A stretch of DNA of 64,000 bases, taken from Candidatus Aquidulcis sp. (GTDB lineage Bacteria > Chloroflexota > Anaerolineae > UBA4142). The notes under the pieces were generated by a model that did not search any database, was not told the origin of the DNA, and was given only the letters and a program-made list of their open reading frames with translations. The stretch lies in NCBI GenBank assembly GCA_020723345.1, contig DYJA01000015.1, positions 1-64,000 of the forward strand, given 5' to 3'. This document shows, piece after piece, positions 36,648 through 42,384 of the stretch (positions are counted from its first letter, which is position 1; the number at the start of each line of letters is the position of its first letter). The translations under genes and the position numbers were made by a program.

Positions 36648-38522
36648 TTATTTCCCTGGGTTACCCCACACATCCCGCGCAATCTCCGGCATCCCCAACG
36701 CGAGCAATTTCTCGCGGCGCGGTTTCCCGGTTTCCCAGTCCCACTCACGATGCGCGTAATACTCGCGCAGCATCGGTTCGAGTTGCGGGACGTGACCTTC
36801 GCTGCCGCTGTCGGCGAGTGGGCGCAATACCAGTTCCGGCAACTTTTCAGCCGCGCGCGCGTTGTAACCGAGTTTCAGATTGAGCGCGCGTTTCAAATTC
36901 ATCATGCGCTCGCCGTACGTCAGCGCGTTGGCAAGCGTGACGTCGTAGCCCGTCGCGGCGGACAGCATCGCGATCATATTTTTGACCGGCGGATTGGGAA
37001 AGTGGCATTGCGCGAGCGACGAGGTGAACGCGCGCCAATCTTGGTGCTTGGCGACCGGCGCGCCTTTGCCCGCGTTCTCGAAACGTTCCGTCGCGCCGAT
37101 GCCGAGGTCGTCGAGGACGCGCCCGGAAATTTCGATCATGAAATAGTCGGACTGGTTGTGGCTCGCGCCAATCGGCGAAGTCGCGTAGACGATTGCCATG
37201 CCGGCGGCGGCGCGCGGATCGTGCATCGCCAATTCCATCCCGTTGACCTGCACTGCGAAATGTTCGACGCCGTAGCGCGCGCCGAAATTTTTCGATCCTT
37301 CAGCGAGCGCGTCGCCCAGTCCTTCGCGTCGCGCGATCATTTCGACGAGTTTCGACGCGACGGCTGGATCATTCCAGCGCAAGTCCGCGCCGTCGAGCGC
37401 AGACGCGGGAACGAGACCTTGCTCGCGCAAAAACGCCGCGAACGCAATCGTCGATCCAGCGGTGATGCTGTCGAGTCCCAGCGCGTCGCACTGCGCGCCG
37501 AGGTACGTCGCCATTCCCAGATTGTCGTTGAGCAAGAGCGACCCGAACGCGGCGAGTGTTTCGTACTCCGGACCTTCGGCGTGCGGCAGATCGTGTCCAG
37601 CCGCGCGCGCGACTTTGCGCCCGCAGCCGATCATGCACGCGTGGCACGTCCCGCGTCCGGTGAGAATTGTTTCGGCAAGTGTGTTGCCGCTGATGCTCGC
37701 GTAATCGAACGTGCCTTGCGTCCAGTATTTCACCGGCACGTCGCCCATCAAGCCGAGATAATCCATCGAACCCGACGTGCCGACCGAACGCCAGATTTGC
37801 GTAGAGATGTCGTCGGACAACATTTCGGTGGTGGGATGTAGCGCGGCTTGAAATGCCGCAGGATCGTGCAGCGCGATTTTCGTCGCGCCGGCGCGTACCG
37901 CCAGCGCTTTGAGATTTTTCGATCCCATCACCGCGCCCATGCCGCAGCGTCCGGCGATGCCCTTTTTCGCGCCGGCGCGCGCGTTCGTCGAAAGGATCAG
38001 CGCGTACTTGACGCGATTTTCTCCGGCGGGACCGATTGCCGCGACGGTGAGTTTTTGATCGTCCAACTCGGCGCGAAGCGCGTCGCCGGTTTCAAAAGTC
38101 GTTTTGCCGCGCAAATGTTGTGCGTCGCGCAGTTCGACTTTGCCGTCGCGAATCAGCAAGTAGACCGGTGTCGGCGCTGCGCCGCGCACGATGATGCCGT
38201 CGTACCCGGCAAGTTTGAGATCGGACGCGAAAAAGTTGCCGCCGGTTGCTTCGCCGTAAATGCCGGTCAGCGGCGAACGTGCGGCGACGACAAAGCGTCC
38301 GCAACTCGGCGCGGCAGTCGCGGCGAGCGGTCCCGTCATAAAAATCAGCGGATTGTCGGGACTGAGCGGATCGGTCTGCGCGTCAATCGCGTCATAGAGA
38401 TAACGCGCCGCGAGTCCCGCGCCGCCGATGTACTGCGCGGCGTAATTTTCGTTCAATGCTTCGTCGAAAACTTTGCCGGTGGTGAGATCGACGATGAGAA
38501 GTTTGCCGGTGTAGGAGTTCAT
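36648..38522 (-). CDS. aor: Aldehyde:ferredoxin oxidoreductase (tungsten enzyme)
   Basis: Protein of 624 residues, normal family length. N-terminal domain with YTGKLLIVDLTTGKV and GGAGLAARYLYD, pterin-binding GRFVVAARSPLTGIYGEATG (in part). The [4Fe-4S] ligands are in CHACMIGC (Cx2Cx3C), with a fourth Cys in SLAQCHFPN near residue 505. AORs oxidise aldehydes to acids with ferredoxin, or reduce acids in the reverse direction. The operon also holds an iron alcohol dehydrogenase, so aldehyde/alcohol interconversion is likely. The exact aldehyde cannot be told. Confidence 0.92.
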   Translation of the reverse strand: MNSYTGKLLIVDLTTGKVFDEALNENYAAQYIGGAGLAARYLYDAIDAQTDPLSPDNPLIFMTGPLAATAAPSCGRFVVAARSPLTGIYGEATGGNFFASDLKLAGYDGIIVRGAAPTPVYLLIRDGKVELRDAQHLRGKTTFETGDALRAELDDQKLTVAAIGPAGENRVKYALILSTNARAGAKKGIAGRCGMGAVMGSKNLKALAVRAGATKIALHDPAAFQAALHPTTEMLSDDISTQIWRSVGTSGSMDYLGLMGDVPVKYWTQGTFDYASISGNTLAETILTGRGTCHACMIGCGRKVARAAGHDLPHAEGPEYETLAAFGSLLLNDNLGMATYLGAQCDALGLDSITAGSTIAFAAFLREQGLVPASALDGADLRWNDPAVASKLVEMIARREGLGDALAEGSKNFGARYGVEHFAVQVNGMELAMHDPRAAAGMAIVYATSPIGASHNQSDYFMIEISGRVLDDLGIGATERFENAGKGAPVAKHQDWRAFTSSLAQCHFPNPPVKNMIAMLSAATGYDVTLANALTYGERMMNLKRALNLKLGYNARAAEKLPELVLRPLADSGSEGHVPQLEPMLREYYAHREWDWETGKPRREKLLALGMPEIARDVWGNPGK

Positions 38523-38531
38523 GGTTTGCTC

Positions 38532-38741
38532 CTATACTTTGGACAGTTCATCGGGAGTGATGTCCAATTTACGCAAAATGGCGCGCAATGTTCCCACCTT
38601 GAAATCTTTGCTCCCGTGAAAAGGGATTGCCGTAAAACGATTGCGTTTGGGATTCCACCAGATTTCGTGCGACCCCGAGCCGTACCGAACAAATTCACAC
38701 CCCAGTCTACGCAATTTCTTGGTGAGGGTCTGGTAATTCAT
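38532..38741 (-). CDS. hicA: HicA-family mRNA interferase toxin
   Basis: About 69 residues from the ATG at 38741. The dsRBD-like HicA pattern is clear: LTKKLRRLGCEFVRYGSGSH with the catalytic His in SGSHEIWWNP, then AIPFHGSKDFKVGTLRAILR. The start overlaps the upstream antitoxin stop by 4 nt. Confidence 0.9.
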   Translation of the reverse strand: MNYQTLTKKLRRLGCEFVRYGSGSHEIWWNPKRNRFTAIPFHGSKDFKVGTLRAILRKLDITPDELSKV

Positions 38742-39034
38742 ACGGCAGTTACCAGAATTTCGACGTTCACCGGGAACTTGACCGTCTTGAGCGCGACGGG
38801 TGGTTCGATGCCTTTTTCGCGCATTGCTTCGAGCAACGCGCGCGCGACGCCGGGTGCCCACTCTAAAACTTGCTCAACTGTTTCGCCTTCGACCAGGAAA
38901 CCGGGCAGCACGGGACTCTGCGCGAGGTAGCCGCCTTCTTCCAGTGGTTCGATGTGAATTGGCAATGTGTAGCCGTTCAGCGCAATTTTCTTTTCGTGAC
39001 GATATTTCGTTTTGCGTTCGGAAACTTTTCTCAT
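38738..39034 (-). CDS. hicB: HicB-family antitoxin
   Basis: Protein of 98 residues: a basic N-terminal tail then the HicB partial RNase-H-like fold (LPIHIEPLEEGGYLAQSPVL, GFLVEGETVEQVLEWA). The antitoxin precedes the toxin, as in several hicBA loci. It lies between the alcohol dehydrogenase and AOR genes. Confidence 0.88.
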   Translation of the reverse strand: MRKVSERKTKYRHEKKIALNGYTLPIHIEPLEEGGYLAQSPVLPGFLVEGETVEQVLEWAPGVARALLEAMREKGIEPPVALKTVKFPVNVEILVTAV

Positions 39035-39057: not shown

Positions 39058-40293
39058 TCAGAAATCAATCGGCTTGCCCTCGTACGCGTACCAGAATATT
39101 TTTTCCAACTCGGCGCGCTCCGGCACGCGCGAGTTCGCGGTGATCGACGTGTCGTTCTCCGCGTGATCGAGCAGCGTGGGCATGGCGCGCGCGAAATCGT
39201 CGCGCGGGATGCCGAGCGACGCGGCGTTCGTGTTCGACTGCAAACCAGTTTCCAATTCGCGGACGGCTTGGATCATGCAGCGCGTCATTTGTTCCGGACT
39301 CGCTTGTCCGAGATCGATGTAGCCGTGCATCTTGCCGCCGCCGAGGATCGGCGCCGGACGCGCTGGTTCTGCCACAGACACGAGTCCAATAAAGTGCGCG
39401 AGGTCGGCGTAGCGATAGTTGCCGCCGTTCGCGGCAAATTCCATCGTGTACGGAAGGAAGAGCGACACGGCGCGTCCGTGTGGAACGTGGAACGCGCCGC
39501 CGAAGGAATGTCCCATCGCGTGCGCGAGCGCGGCGAGCGAGTTGATAAAGCCGAGTCCGGCAATCGCCGCGGCGTTGTGCATTTTCTCGCGCGCCTCCGC
39601 GTCGTTGCCGTCGGCGTATGCTCGGGGAAGGAATTTGAAAATGAGGTCGGTTGCTTTGAGGCACATCCCGTCGGAAAAATCGTTACGCCAACTCGACGTG
39701 TAGCCCTCAATCGCGTGCGTCAGCGCGTCGAGTCCGGTATCGGCGGTGAGGCGCGGCGGCATCTTCATCGCGAAAATCGGATCGACAATCGCAATCGTCG
39801 CGAGCGTCTCGCGCGAGCCGAGACCCAGTTTGCGATTTTCGGCGGGATCGGAGAGGACGGTCGCCCACGTTACTTCGGCGCCGGTGCCGCTCGTCGTCGC
39901 AATCGTGATGAGCCGCGCCTTTTTGCCTAGCCCGAGGTACTCGAGTGGGTTGATGCAATCGGGTTGCAAATCGGGACACTCGTACAAAGCCCACATGGCT
40001 TTTGCCGCGTCCATCGGCGAGCCGCCGCCGAGTCCGACGACCCAATCGGGTTCGTATTCGCGCAAGAGCGCCGCGCCGCGGCGGACCGTATCGAGCGAGG
40101 GTTCCGGTTCCACTTCGGCAAAGACGCGCGTTTCGATGTTCGCTTGCGTGAGTTGCTCTTGCACGAGATCGACGAAACCGAACCTGACCATTTGATCATC
40201 GGTGATAATGTAAGCGCGTGCGCCGTGAATTTGCGCGAGGTACGAGAGCGCGCCCTCGCCAAAGACGACTTGGGGGCTGTTGAAGAACCACAT
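39058..40293 (-). CDS. Iron-containing alcohol dehydrogenase
   Basis: Group III Fe-ADH of 411 residues. NAD(P)-binding GLGGGSPMDAAKAM and TTSGTGAEVT, iron ligands in DTGLDALTHAIEGY and AMGHSFGGAFHVPHGRAVS (His residues). Reduces aldehydes or oxidises alcohols. It lies in a minus-strand run with HicBA and AOR. Confidence 0.93.
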   Translation of the reverse strand: MWFFNSPQVVFGEGALSYLAQIHGARAYIITDDQMVRFGFVDLVQEQLTQANIETRVFAEVEPEPSLDTVRRGAALLREYEPDWVVGLGGGSPMDAAKAMWALYECPDLQPDCINPLEYLGLGKKARLITIATTSGTGAEVTWATVLSDPAENRKLGLGSRETLATIAIVDPIFAMKMPPRLTADTGLDALTHAIEGYTSSWRNDFSDGMCLKATDLIFKFLPRAYADGNDAEAREKMHNAAAIAGLGFINSLAALAHAMGHSFGGAFHVPHGRAVSLFLPYTMEFAANGGNYRYADLAHFIGLVSVAEPARPAPILGGGKMHGYIDLGQASPEQMTRCMIQAVRELETGLQSNTNAASLGIPRDDFARAMPTLLDHAENDTSITANSRVPERAELEKIFWYAYEGKPIDF

Positions 40294-40301
40294 GTTGCCT
40301 C

Positions 40302-40377
40302 ATTTCAGATTTAGGATTTATGATTTCAGATTTAGCGCGCCAGAAATCTGAAATCATAAATCTGAAATCTTAAATCT
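40302..40377. repeat. Inverted repeat of GATTTCAGATTT-type units
   Basis: Left units (ATTTCAGATTT and neighbours) pair with right units (AAATCTGAAAT). The right edge overlaps the stop codon of the SCP2 gene at 40370. It probably acts as a terminator. Confidence 0.7.
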
Positions 40378-40783
40378 CGAATTCGGTTTCGATGCGCGTG
40401 CAGGCGCGGACGATTTCCTGCGCGGCTTTGACGTTCTTCATCACCATCGTCATGTTGCCTTTGAGTTTGAGTTGTCCGGTCATCAACGCCTGGATCGGAT
40501 CGAGTTTCGCCAGGACAACTTGTTTCCATTTGCCGTACTTGCCGGACATGACGAAGGCGGGATTTTTCTCTGCGGGGTCTTGAACGATTTTTGCCTCGCG
40601 GGACTTGCCGTGCCAGAGGTCCATGTACATGTACACGGCGTTCGTCACGGGTCCTTCGGGTTCGACGATGAAGTAGAAATCGCCTTCCCAATTCTTGGCG
40701 GCATCTTCGTACGCCTGGCTGGCGTTCAATTCGTCGTGCAATGCCTGCGTCCATTCTGGGGAACCGAACTTGTGCTTTGCCAT
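40370..40783 (-). CDS. SCP2 sterol-binding-domain protein
   Basis: Protein of 137 residues matching the SCP2/sterol-carrier fold used by prokaryotic lipid-binding proteins: FGSPEWTQALHDELNAS, FYFIVEPEGPVTNAVYMY, AFVMSGKYGKWKQVVLAKLD, PIQALMTGQLKLKGNM. It may bind acyl or aromatic ligands; such proteins often go with acid/CoA metabolism. It is transcribed divergently from the selenoprotein gene. Confidence 0.85.
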   Translation of the reverse strand: MAKHKFGSPEWTQALHDELNASQAYEDAAKNWEGDFYFIVEPEGPVTNAVYMYMDLWHGKSREAKIVQDPAEKNPAFVMSGKYGKWKQVVLAKLDPIQALMTGQLKLKGNMTMVMKNVKAAQEIVRACTRIETEFEI

Positions 40784-40836: not shown

Positions 40837-40864
40837 ATTATATCACAGACGAGGAGCGTGTCAA
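40837..40864 (-). promoter_or_regulatory. Promoter of the SCP2 gene
   Basis: On the minus strand TTGACA, 16-nt spacer, TATAAT, about 54 nt from the ATG. Confidence 0.75.
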
Positions 40865-40873
40865 CGATTTCGT

Positions 40874-40902
40874 TTGACAAAAACCTTCATTTTCGGGATA
40901 AT
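40874..40902 (+). promoter_or_regulatory. Promoter of the selenoprotein gene
   Basis: TTGACA, 17-nt spacer, GATAAT, about 30 nt before the ATG at 40932; AGAGGA is the ribosome site. It lies back to back with the SCP2 promoter. Confidence 0.7.
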
Positions 40903-40931
40903 GCGATCACATTTGCTAGAGAGGAATCGCG

Positions 40932-41618
40932 ATGCCATCTCGCAGAACAGATCCGAAACTTAAATCACGATCCAACCGCGGCATACCCAACTGGGTGATT
41001 GCTGTTGGGATGGTTGCCGCTGTCGTCGTTGGGATAGCGGTGTTGTTCACGCTCCAGTCGCCCACCGCGCCGGCGTACTCACCCGCGAGCGGTACTTCCG
41101 CCGGAAGAACCAAAGGTGATCCGAACGCAAAGCTCGAGTTTGTCGTTTTTTCCGATTTCAAGTGACCGTACTGCATGCTATTTGCAGCCGACGCGGGGCG
41201 TCGGATTGATGAAGCGTACGTCAAAACAAACAAGATCAAGGTCACGTACAAATACTATCTCGTCGTGGATCCGAACGGCGAATCGAATTGGTCGGCGAAT
41301 GCGACGGAGTGCGCGAACGAACAGGGCAAGTTCTGGGATTACTATAACAAGTTGGTCGCCGAGTCGCCGGGTGGACGCAATTCGTTGACGAAAGCCAATT
41401 TGAAAAAATACGCGGCGGAGATTCGCTTGGACACCGCCAAGTTCGATGTGTGTTTGGATAGCAGCAAGTATGCGTCGGCGGTGCAGGCGGATCATGCTGA
41501 AGCGCAACGCCTGGGACTCGACAGCACGCCGACGTTTATCCTCAACGGGCGGCGACTGAACGTCACTTCGCTCGATTTTTCCGAGTTCGCGCGCACGTTC
41601 GACACATTGCTCAAGTAG
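40932..41618 (+). CDS. Predicted selenoprotein: membrane-anchored DsbA-like thiol oxidoreductase (UPYC)
   Basis: A 228-residue frame holding one internal TGA at 41163-41165. N-terminal helix (about 21-41) then a thioredoxin-like DsbA fold with VVFSDFK, TGA, PYC. Reading TGA as selenocysteine gives residue U78 in UPYC, where DsbA-type proteins have CPYC. Later family motifs are intact (TECANEQGKFWDYYNKLVAE, DSTPTFILNGRRL). The tandem paralogue at 41689 has YADFQCPYS, with Cys aligned to the TGA. A 7-bp hairpin (CCGACGC, loop GGG, GCGTCGG, 41188-41204) begins 23 nt after the TGA, and the first loop G is 30 nt from it, fitting bacterial SECIS rules. Alternatives are a nonsense-mutated gene or sequencing error. 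selA, selB and tRNA-Sec are not in the window. Confidence 0.78.
41163..41204 (+). promoter_or_regulatory. Sec codon and SECIS-like hairpin
   Basis: TGA at 41163-41165 followed by a perfect 7-bp stem (41188-41194 with 41198-41204) and a GGG loop. A weaker CTGCA/TGCAG stem (41171-41175 with 41183-41187) stacks just before it. Bacterial SelB recognises a stem-loop with G in the first loop positions at 16-37 nt from the UGA; this hairpin fits. Confidence 0.65.
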
Positions 41619-41630
41619 GATCGGAAAATC

Positions 41631-41667
41631 TTGCGCGGGCATCTCGAACCACGAGATGCTCGCGCAA
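41631..41667. repeat. Sixteen-bp hairpin between the two DsbA-like genes
   Basis: Arms 41631-41646 and 41652-41667 pair over 16 positions with one G-U. AATTCTG follows, so it may be a partial terminator or mRNA stabiliser separating the selenoprotein from its paralogue. Confidence 0.75.
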
Positions 41668-41688
41668 AATTCTGGGTTGAGAGACACG

Positions 41689-42384
41689 ATGAAGTGGTCT
41701 AACCGATGGTTGGGTGCGCTCGCCGCGCTCTGGTTTGCGCTGGCGTCTTGCAGCGGCGCTGATCCACTTGCCGCGCCGCGCGCGCCAGCGACGCCCACGC
41801 GCGCGTCTCAGCCCCTCTCCACGCGCGATCCCGCGCACAAACTGCCTCTCCCCGGTCGCACGCTCGGCAATCCGAACACGCGCGTCACGCTCGTCGTCTA
41901 CGCCGATTTTCAATGTCCGTACTCGCGTCAGTTTGCGCGCGAAGTGCTGCCGCGTTTGGCGAAAGAGTACATCCAGCCCGGCGAAATCAGTTTCACCTAC
42001 AAATATTTCCCGGTGATCGACGAAGGACGCATCGGCGAATCACACTGGGCGGCGTACGCGGCGGAGTGCGCGAACGAGCAGGGCAAGTTTTGGGAATACC
42101 ACGACAAGCTGTACGCCGAACAGCGCGGCGCGAACGTCGGCGCGTTCACGCGCGGCAACCTCAAACAGTACGCCGGTGAGTTGAAACTCGATCCGACGCA
42201 ATTCAATCAGTGTCTCGATTCCGATCGACACGCCGCGCGCGTGCTCGATCACTTGGTGGAAGCGCTGCAACTCAAGTTGCCCGGCACGCCGACGTTTCTG
42301 CTCACCGGCAGAAAAATCGATACGCCCACGCTCGATTACTCTGAATTTTGGAAACCCCTGGAAGCCGAGTTGAAGACGCGGTAA
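41689..42384 (+). CDS. DsbA-like lipoprotein thiol oxidoreductase (CPYS)
   Basis: About 231 residues from the ATG at 41689. Lipoprotein signal ending ALASC, an Ala/Pro/Thr-rich spacer, then the DsbA-like fold: VVYADFQCPYSRQFAREVLP, AECANEQGKFWEYHDKLYAE, LPGTPTFLLTGRKI. The active site is CPYS (Cys at about residue 76), so the resolving Cys is replaced by Ser. It is the Cys paralogue of the upstream predicted selenoprotein. A monothiol site suggests reductase, isomerase or peroxidase-type action rather than disulfide oxidation (inference). Confidence 0.85.
   Translation: MKWSNRWLGALAALWFALASCSGADPLAAPRAPATPTRASQPLSTRDPAHKLPLPGRTLGNPNTRVTLVVYADFQCPYSRQFAREVLPRLAKEYIQPGEISFTYKYFPVIDEGRIGESHWAAYAAECANEQGKFWEYHDKLYAEQRGANVGAFTRGNLKQYAGELKLDPTQFNQCLDSDRHAARVLDHLVEALQLKLPGTPTFLLTGRKIDTPTLDYSEFWKPLEAELKTR

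Follow-up and report, generated by a model that had tools for sequence, protein, structure and literature searches.

A predicted selenocysteine-containing DsbA-type oxidoreductase of Chloroflexota with a conserved SECIS hairpin, and a candidate selenocysteine VKOR in the same genome

The window analysed here, a 64,000-nucleotide stretch of a contig from Candidatus Aquidulcis sp. (Chloroflexota), carries a gene whose product is very probably a selenocysteine (Sec)-containing oxidoreductase of the DsbA type, as judged from its sequence (Table 1). Read through, the frame gives a single internal TGA, which is codon 78. An in-frame UGA, a conserved frame and homologues with Cys or Sec at the aligned position, by which bacterial selenoproteins are recognised, were all found. 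A first-pass annotation of the same DNA had described the TGA as the sole interruption of a DsbA-like frame, falling on the first Cys of the CxxC motif (FSDFK-TGA-PYC), with a paralogue alongside that has Cys at the aligned place (YADFQCPYS) and with a near-consensus promoter and a ribosome site of its own in front; the translation, the alignment and the upstream scan bear out each of these statements. The position and conservation of the TGA, the SECIS element, the Sec machinery, the fold class and the VKOR genes were all read from sequence, and from these Sec would be inserted at this codon in the cell.

Table 1. Features of the predicted Sec-DsbA gene and related loci (window coordinates unless a contig is named)
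Feature	Position	Strand	Basis or remark
Predicted dsbA-like selenoprotein gene	40932..41618	+	228 residues, Sec78; stop TAG 41616-41618
In-frame TGA, predicted to be read as Sec (residue 78, position 1 of UPYC)	41163..41165	+	TGA/Cys at this codon in homologues
Cys81, second (resolving) residue of UPYC	41172..41174	+	column nearly invariant in alignment; Ser in CPYS paralogues only
N-terminal hydrophobic helix, residues 20-41	40989..41054	+	AlphaFold2 model; R/K-rich N terminus before it
Thr199-Pro200, cis-Pro loop opposite the active site in Trx-fold oxidoreductases	41526..41531	+	both columns invariant in alignment
Bacterial SECIS element: 7-bp stem, GGG loop (41195-41197)	41188..41204	+	covariation and synonymous-codon controls, 50 sequences
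Sigma-70-like promoter TTGACA-17-GATAAT	40874..40902	+	consensus scan 11/12; pattern match only
Ribosome-binding site AGAGAGGA	40918..40925	+	6 nt upstream of ATG, from sequence
Tandem paralogue, CPYS site (Cys then Ser)	41656..42384	+	Thioredoxin_4 2.7e-27; 46% identity to Sec protein
Stand-alone VKOR gene with TGA	L114:1453-1911; contig C107:114011-114466	-	UIWC, in-frame TGA

The search for homologues covered 396 sampled genomes of the class. In each of 12 relatives from the same family-level group (12/12), the best match contains exactly one TGA, and across the homologues examined codon 78 is TGA in 50 and TGC/TGT in 16. In the loci that were read, the TGA occupies position 1 of the motif, while the remaining homologues have Cys and never Trp. 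Two sister species, each assembled independently, carry the same TGA: a Chloroflexi MAG (77% identity) and an Anaerolineae MAG (75% identity). The dN/dS values are 0.15–0.30 upstream of the TGA and 0.10–0.23 downstream of it, and purifying selection acts alike on its two sides.

The hairpin described in the first-pass annotation, a 7-bp stem with a GGG loop beginning 22 nt past the TGA, was recovered exactly (CCGACGC-GGG-GCGTCGG, −10.7 kcal/mol). The published model of bacterial SECIS elements has a loop of 3–9 nt, an upper stem of 4–16 bp, a G in the first two loop positions, a spacing of 16–37 nt and a minimum free energy of at most −7.5 kcal/mol (PMC13188914). The window hairpin lies within every one of these constraints; there are 29 nt between UGA and loop, and the first loop G, 30 nt from the TGA, falls inside the spacing range as had been claimed. 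Taken alone, the hairpin is mildly unusual against synonymous codons (p ~0.04). The folding energy of the 60-nt stretch following the TGA was dropped as evidence, the z-score being −0.92 and the Cys paralogue folding equally well, and was replaced by tests of conservation. In the alignment of the 50 TGA homologues, 93.4% of the stem cells are paired, compared with 23–49% when the 3′ arm is slid, and 68 stem cells are doubly changed, compared with an average of 15 after shuffling. As a control for coding constraint, codons were also swapped for synonymous ones in 1,000 sets. At least six of the seven pairs form in 46 of the 50 TGA homologues, whereas the synonymous sets reach this in 6 sequences on average and in no more than 15; all 50 homologues have a G among the first two loop bases. 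Among the Cys homologues one of 16 forms six pairs, as the null predicts. Evidently, an RNA structure is kept beyond the need of the protein and is confined to sequences with TGA at the codon; no other single finding weighs as heavily as this conserved hairpin, and since the single-sequence signal is mild, its weight comes from the conservation.

The genome carrying the window is a draft of 6.3 Mb in 132 contigs, 96% complete. SelA (594 bits), SelB (361 bits) and SelD (357 bits) were found in it together with tRNA-Sec (76 bits), whose anticodon is UCA by ARAGORN, and hence all four components that had been suggested for checking are present. Its SelD has an in-frame TGA of its own (AACAG-U-ASK), at the position where Sec or Cys is known in SelD proteins. 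In-frame TGA was also observed in the expected Sec context of formate dehydrogenase genes, two that exceed the family cut-off and one further relative (ARL-U-HAP/HAS and ARI-U-HSS; loci L115, L116 and L121 on contigs C40, C84 and C112 of the same genome). Because of the machinery and of the TGAs in SelD and the formate dehydrogenases, UGA is very probably read as Sec elsewhere in this genome. Co-occurrence of the TGA with SelA was set aside as evidence, as it hardly discriminates when SelA is found in 318 of the 396 genomes of the class. TGA-bearing genomes in which SelA was missing number four, all of them drafts 70–93% complete; tRNA-Sec was found in G098, G292 and G047, and neither SelA nor an above-cut-off tRNA-Sec was found in G283 (70% complete).

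A lone in-frame stop is a classic sign of early decay, and a draft assembly lends some weight to a sequencing error. Nevertheless, a pseudogene in which the TGA is a true stop, or an error, is highly improbable: 12 genomes of the group share this TGA at the aligned codon, and two can be recognised as independent assemblies; dN/dS is 0.10–0.30 over both sides, with no further stop or frameshift in the frame; and a random stop would hit codon 78 with a chance of ~1 in 228. The preference of the first-pass annotation for Sec insertion over decay is supported by the Sec machinery, the conservation of the TGA, the intact frames and the selection on both sides of the codon, and the comparison of homologues that it had proposed gave TGA or Cys at the codon with frames otherwise intact in those examined. 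An ATG at 41175, three codons past the TGA, could in principle restart translation after a real stop and yield a product of 147 residues that lacks the active site. This reading is hardly credible, as the start is not conserved (where relatives retain the TGA, Met82 is replaced by Val, Thr, Lys, Arg or Ile) and the product would have neither the first strand nor the catalytic residues. An in-frame TGA without a stop would likewise be expected if TGA were read as Trp in this genome or were generally suppressed; however, several neighbouring genes terminate with TGA and Trp is TGG in all of them, no other in-frame TGA occurs in the 12 genes checked, and the alternative to TGA at codon 78 is Cys in the homologues examined, which leaves a Trp reading scarcely conceivable. 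Sec at codon 78 is the reading that we adopt below.

The predicted Sec protein matches Thioredoxin_4 (2.9e-29) and DSBA (3.8e-12) in Pfam, with the domain beginning near residue 58. Its AlphaFold2 model (pLDDT 87) has as closest PDB folds BdbD of B. subtilis (top, E 2e-12) and a corynebacterial DsbA, and BdbD was also the best hit of a PDB-sequence profile search (8e-35). The features of the DsbA/BdbD type were found in it, namely a thioredoxin fold with helical insertion, a CxxC-type site and a Thr-Pro loop, whose cis conformation is assumed from the family. Cys127 and Cys174 are also invariant across the family of the window protein. No Cys precedes residue 78, and the charged N terminus is followed by the hydrophobic helix, which is likely a signal anchor that would hold the domain outside the membrane. 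Upstream of the gene, promoter-like sites are divergent and close-set (40837-40902); the minus-strand one, 12/12 to consensus, points towards an SCP2-domain gene (40370-40783).

In the proposed mechanism, UGA 41163 would be decoded by SelB and tRNA-Sec as directed by the hairpin, and the product would act outside the cytoplasm as a membrane-anchored thiol-disulfide oxidoreductase of the DsbA/BdbD kind with Sec as the attacking residue of the CxxC site. Sec78 and Cys81 would cycle between selenol/thiol and selenenylsulfide, with Sec78 exchanging disulfides with exported proteins. The Sec-DsbA would be reset most probably via a VKOR membrane protein, with electrons passing on to quinone.

Isomerases and reductases such as DsbG and ScsC also have DsbA-like folds, and the direction of catalysis is left unsettled by sequence. 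A Sec protein of the same fold might work as a DsbG- or ScsC-like reductase or isomerase, perhaps maintaining the CPYS neighbour or further exported thiols in the reduced state. Such a role would agree with the low potential of Sec, which suits a reductant, with the term DsbG-like used for the nearest curated family in the selenoprotein literature, and with the CxxS site of the tandem partner, whose one active-site Cys cannot close an intramolecular disulfide. Nevertheless, the nearest structures belong to oxidases (BdbD and DsbA), homologues adjoin VKOR, the oxidase of DsbA-like proteins, and the window protein is without the N-terminal dimerisation domain of DsbG. On this balance a reductase or isomerase appears rather unlikely, and the oxidase direction is reasonably probable.

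VKOR takes electrons from DsbA-like proteins and passes them to quinone. A homologue of the window protein was found directly upstream of a same-strand VKOR gene in at least 26 of the sampled genomes of the class. Such neighbours occur with TGA in the dsbA gene (G047:C291:918-1541 with 1585-1983, G150:C95 and G011:C34) and with Cys (G155:C89, G196:C37 and G237:C170). In the family of the window gene itself the VKOR gene is not adjacent to the dsbA gene; by extension from other families in the class, VKOR may, with somewhat better than even prospects, be the redox partner of the window Sec-DsbA.

The genome has two VKOR genes. One (L113) encodes a thioredoxin-like domain fused to VKOR, with a CAWC site. 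The other is stand-alone and has TGA in place of the first Cys of its CxxC site (VLHAY-U-IWCVLQ); it lies directly after cydC, which encodes a subunit of a thiol-reductant exporter. This TGA is kept in seven of ten genomes of the family-level group and is Cys in three. A hairpin was observed in all seven TGA forms, with the loop starting 17–18 nt past the TGA and a G in the first two loop positions, and the stems include a compensated change (GCTGC/GCAGC and GCTACA/TGTAGC); of the Cys-VKORs of the group, one (L127) has a comparable hairpin and the other two have none. The energy of the hairpin in the window's genome is unremarkable against shuffles (z −0.11), and the case for a Sec-VKOR rests for that reason on conservation. 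It is probably a real selenoprotein, to go by this sequence evidence. Sec status is not strictly coupled between the two enzymes, as G118, G247 and G301 have a Sec-DsbA with a Cys-VKOR. An extracytoplasmic disulfide relay built from two selenoproteins, the Sec-DsbA (UPYC) and the Sec-VKOR (UIWC), is proposed tentatively and is somewhat doubtful.

Close relatives of the Sec-VKOR were not found elsewhere in the phylum at E 1e-24, a threshold that reaches close relatives only. VKOR is absent from the lists of the 2026 and 2022 selenoprotein reviews, and no report of a selenocysteine VKOR was found in the full-text literature searched, which includes a minority of subscription papers. If real, the Sec-VKOR would be a selenoprotein family for which we found no earlier report, and it would place selenium at both ends of the pathway of exported disulfide bonds. 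In that event, the question of why a disulfide oxidase uses Sec would become testable.

The paralogue downstream of the window gene is more likely to start at ATG 41689 than at the beginning of its open frame. A lipobox (LASC, by eye) follows that ATG, and for this reason the CPYS paralogue is probably a lipoprotein. A tandem with a CPYS second copy was found in at least four genomes (G000, G039, G265 and G207), with CPYS in all four copies. Elsewhere the second tandem copy is itself a TGA gene, with USFC in G227 and UPYC in G247 and G137. In a quick tree the CPYS partner nests among the Sec rows; a tree holding the Sec rows together is not worse (p-AU 0.76), and a claim of descent of CPYS from a Sec ancestor was dropped on that account. 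The conserved Sec/CPYS tandem raises the question of the role of a DsbA-like partner with a single Cys.

Among known families, NF041057 (Rcas_1661 family thioredoxin-like (seleno)lipoprotein) resembles the window protein in its Thioredoxin_4/DsbA domain and UxxC site, with a match of 102.4 bits over residues 55-225. Rcas stands for Roseiflexus castenholzii, also of the Chloroflexota. The curated cut-off of the family is 190 bits, and membership of the window gene was rejected on this score; moreover, NF041057 has a lipoprotein N terminus, whereas the window protein has the predicted signal anchor and no lipoprotein signal was recognised in it. NF041057 corresponds to the 'DsbG-like' selenoprotein of the literature (PMC13188914). 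A second Sec-DsbA gene of the genome (L073:1415-2155, minus strand, contig C67; FSDFQ-U-PYC with SECIS) is nearer to NF041057, at 156 bits, and falls in a separate clade from the window gene. The clade of the window gene in the quick tree comprises 20 rows with 99% support and holds only sequences of its own family-level group.

The DsbA-like selenoproteins of the Sargasso Sea and later surveys (PF01323, UxxC) share with the window protein a DsbA fold with Sec in place of the first CxxC cysteine and a downstream bacterial SECIS (PMC1088965). The survey families are assigned by COG2761/PF01323, whereas the best Pfam match of the window protein is Thioredoxin_4. The portions of these surveys that were compared describe no subfamily from Chloroflexota paired in tandem with a CPYS partner. 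B. subtilis BdbD, the best fold and PDB profile match, is likewise a membrane-anchored DsbA-type oxidase with a CxxC site; it has Cys where the window protein would have Sec, and its partner is BdbC in place of what is presumably VKOR here. BdbC is DsbB-like. Judged by sequence, the window gene represents a new subfamily of the already catalogued UxxC DsbA/DsbG-like selenoproteins, one whose genes often stand beside a tandem paralogue, and to call it a novel kind would overstate the case. It adds a well-supported Chloroflexota Sec-DsbA subfamily, with a SECIS of the group backed by covariation, to a class of genes that standard gene callers truncate or overlook.

Other genes of the window were noted as well. 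An aldehyde ferredoxin oxidoreductase gene (36648-38522, minus strand; AFOR_N and AFOR_C) lies near an iron-containing alcohol dehydrogenase gene (39058-40293). A HicA toxin gene is found at 38532-38738 on the minus strand (Pfam HicA_toxin), and just upstream of it, on the same strand at 38738-39034, is a HicB-like partner, which has no Pfam match and was judged by eye.
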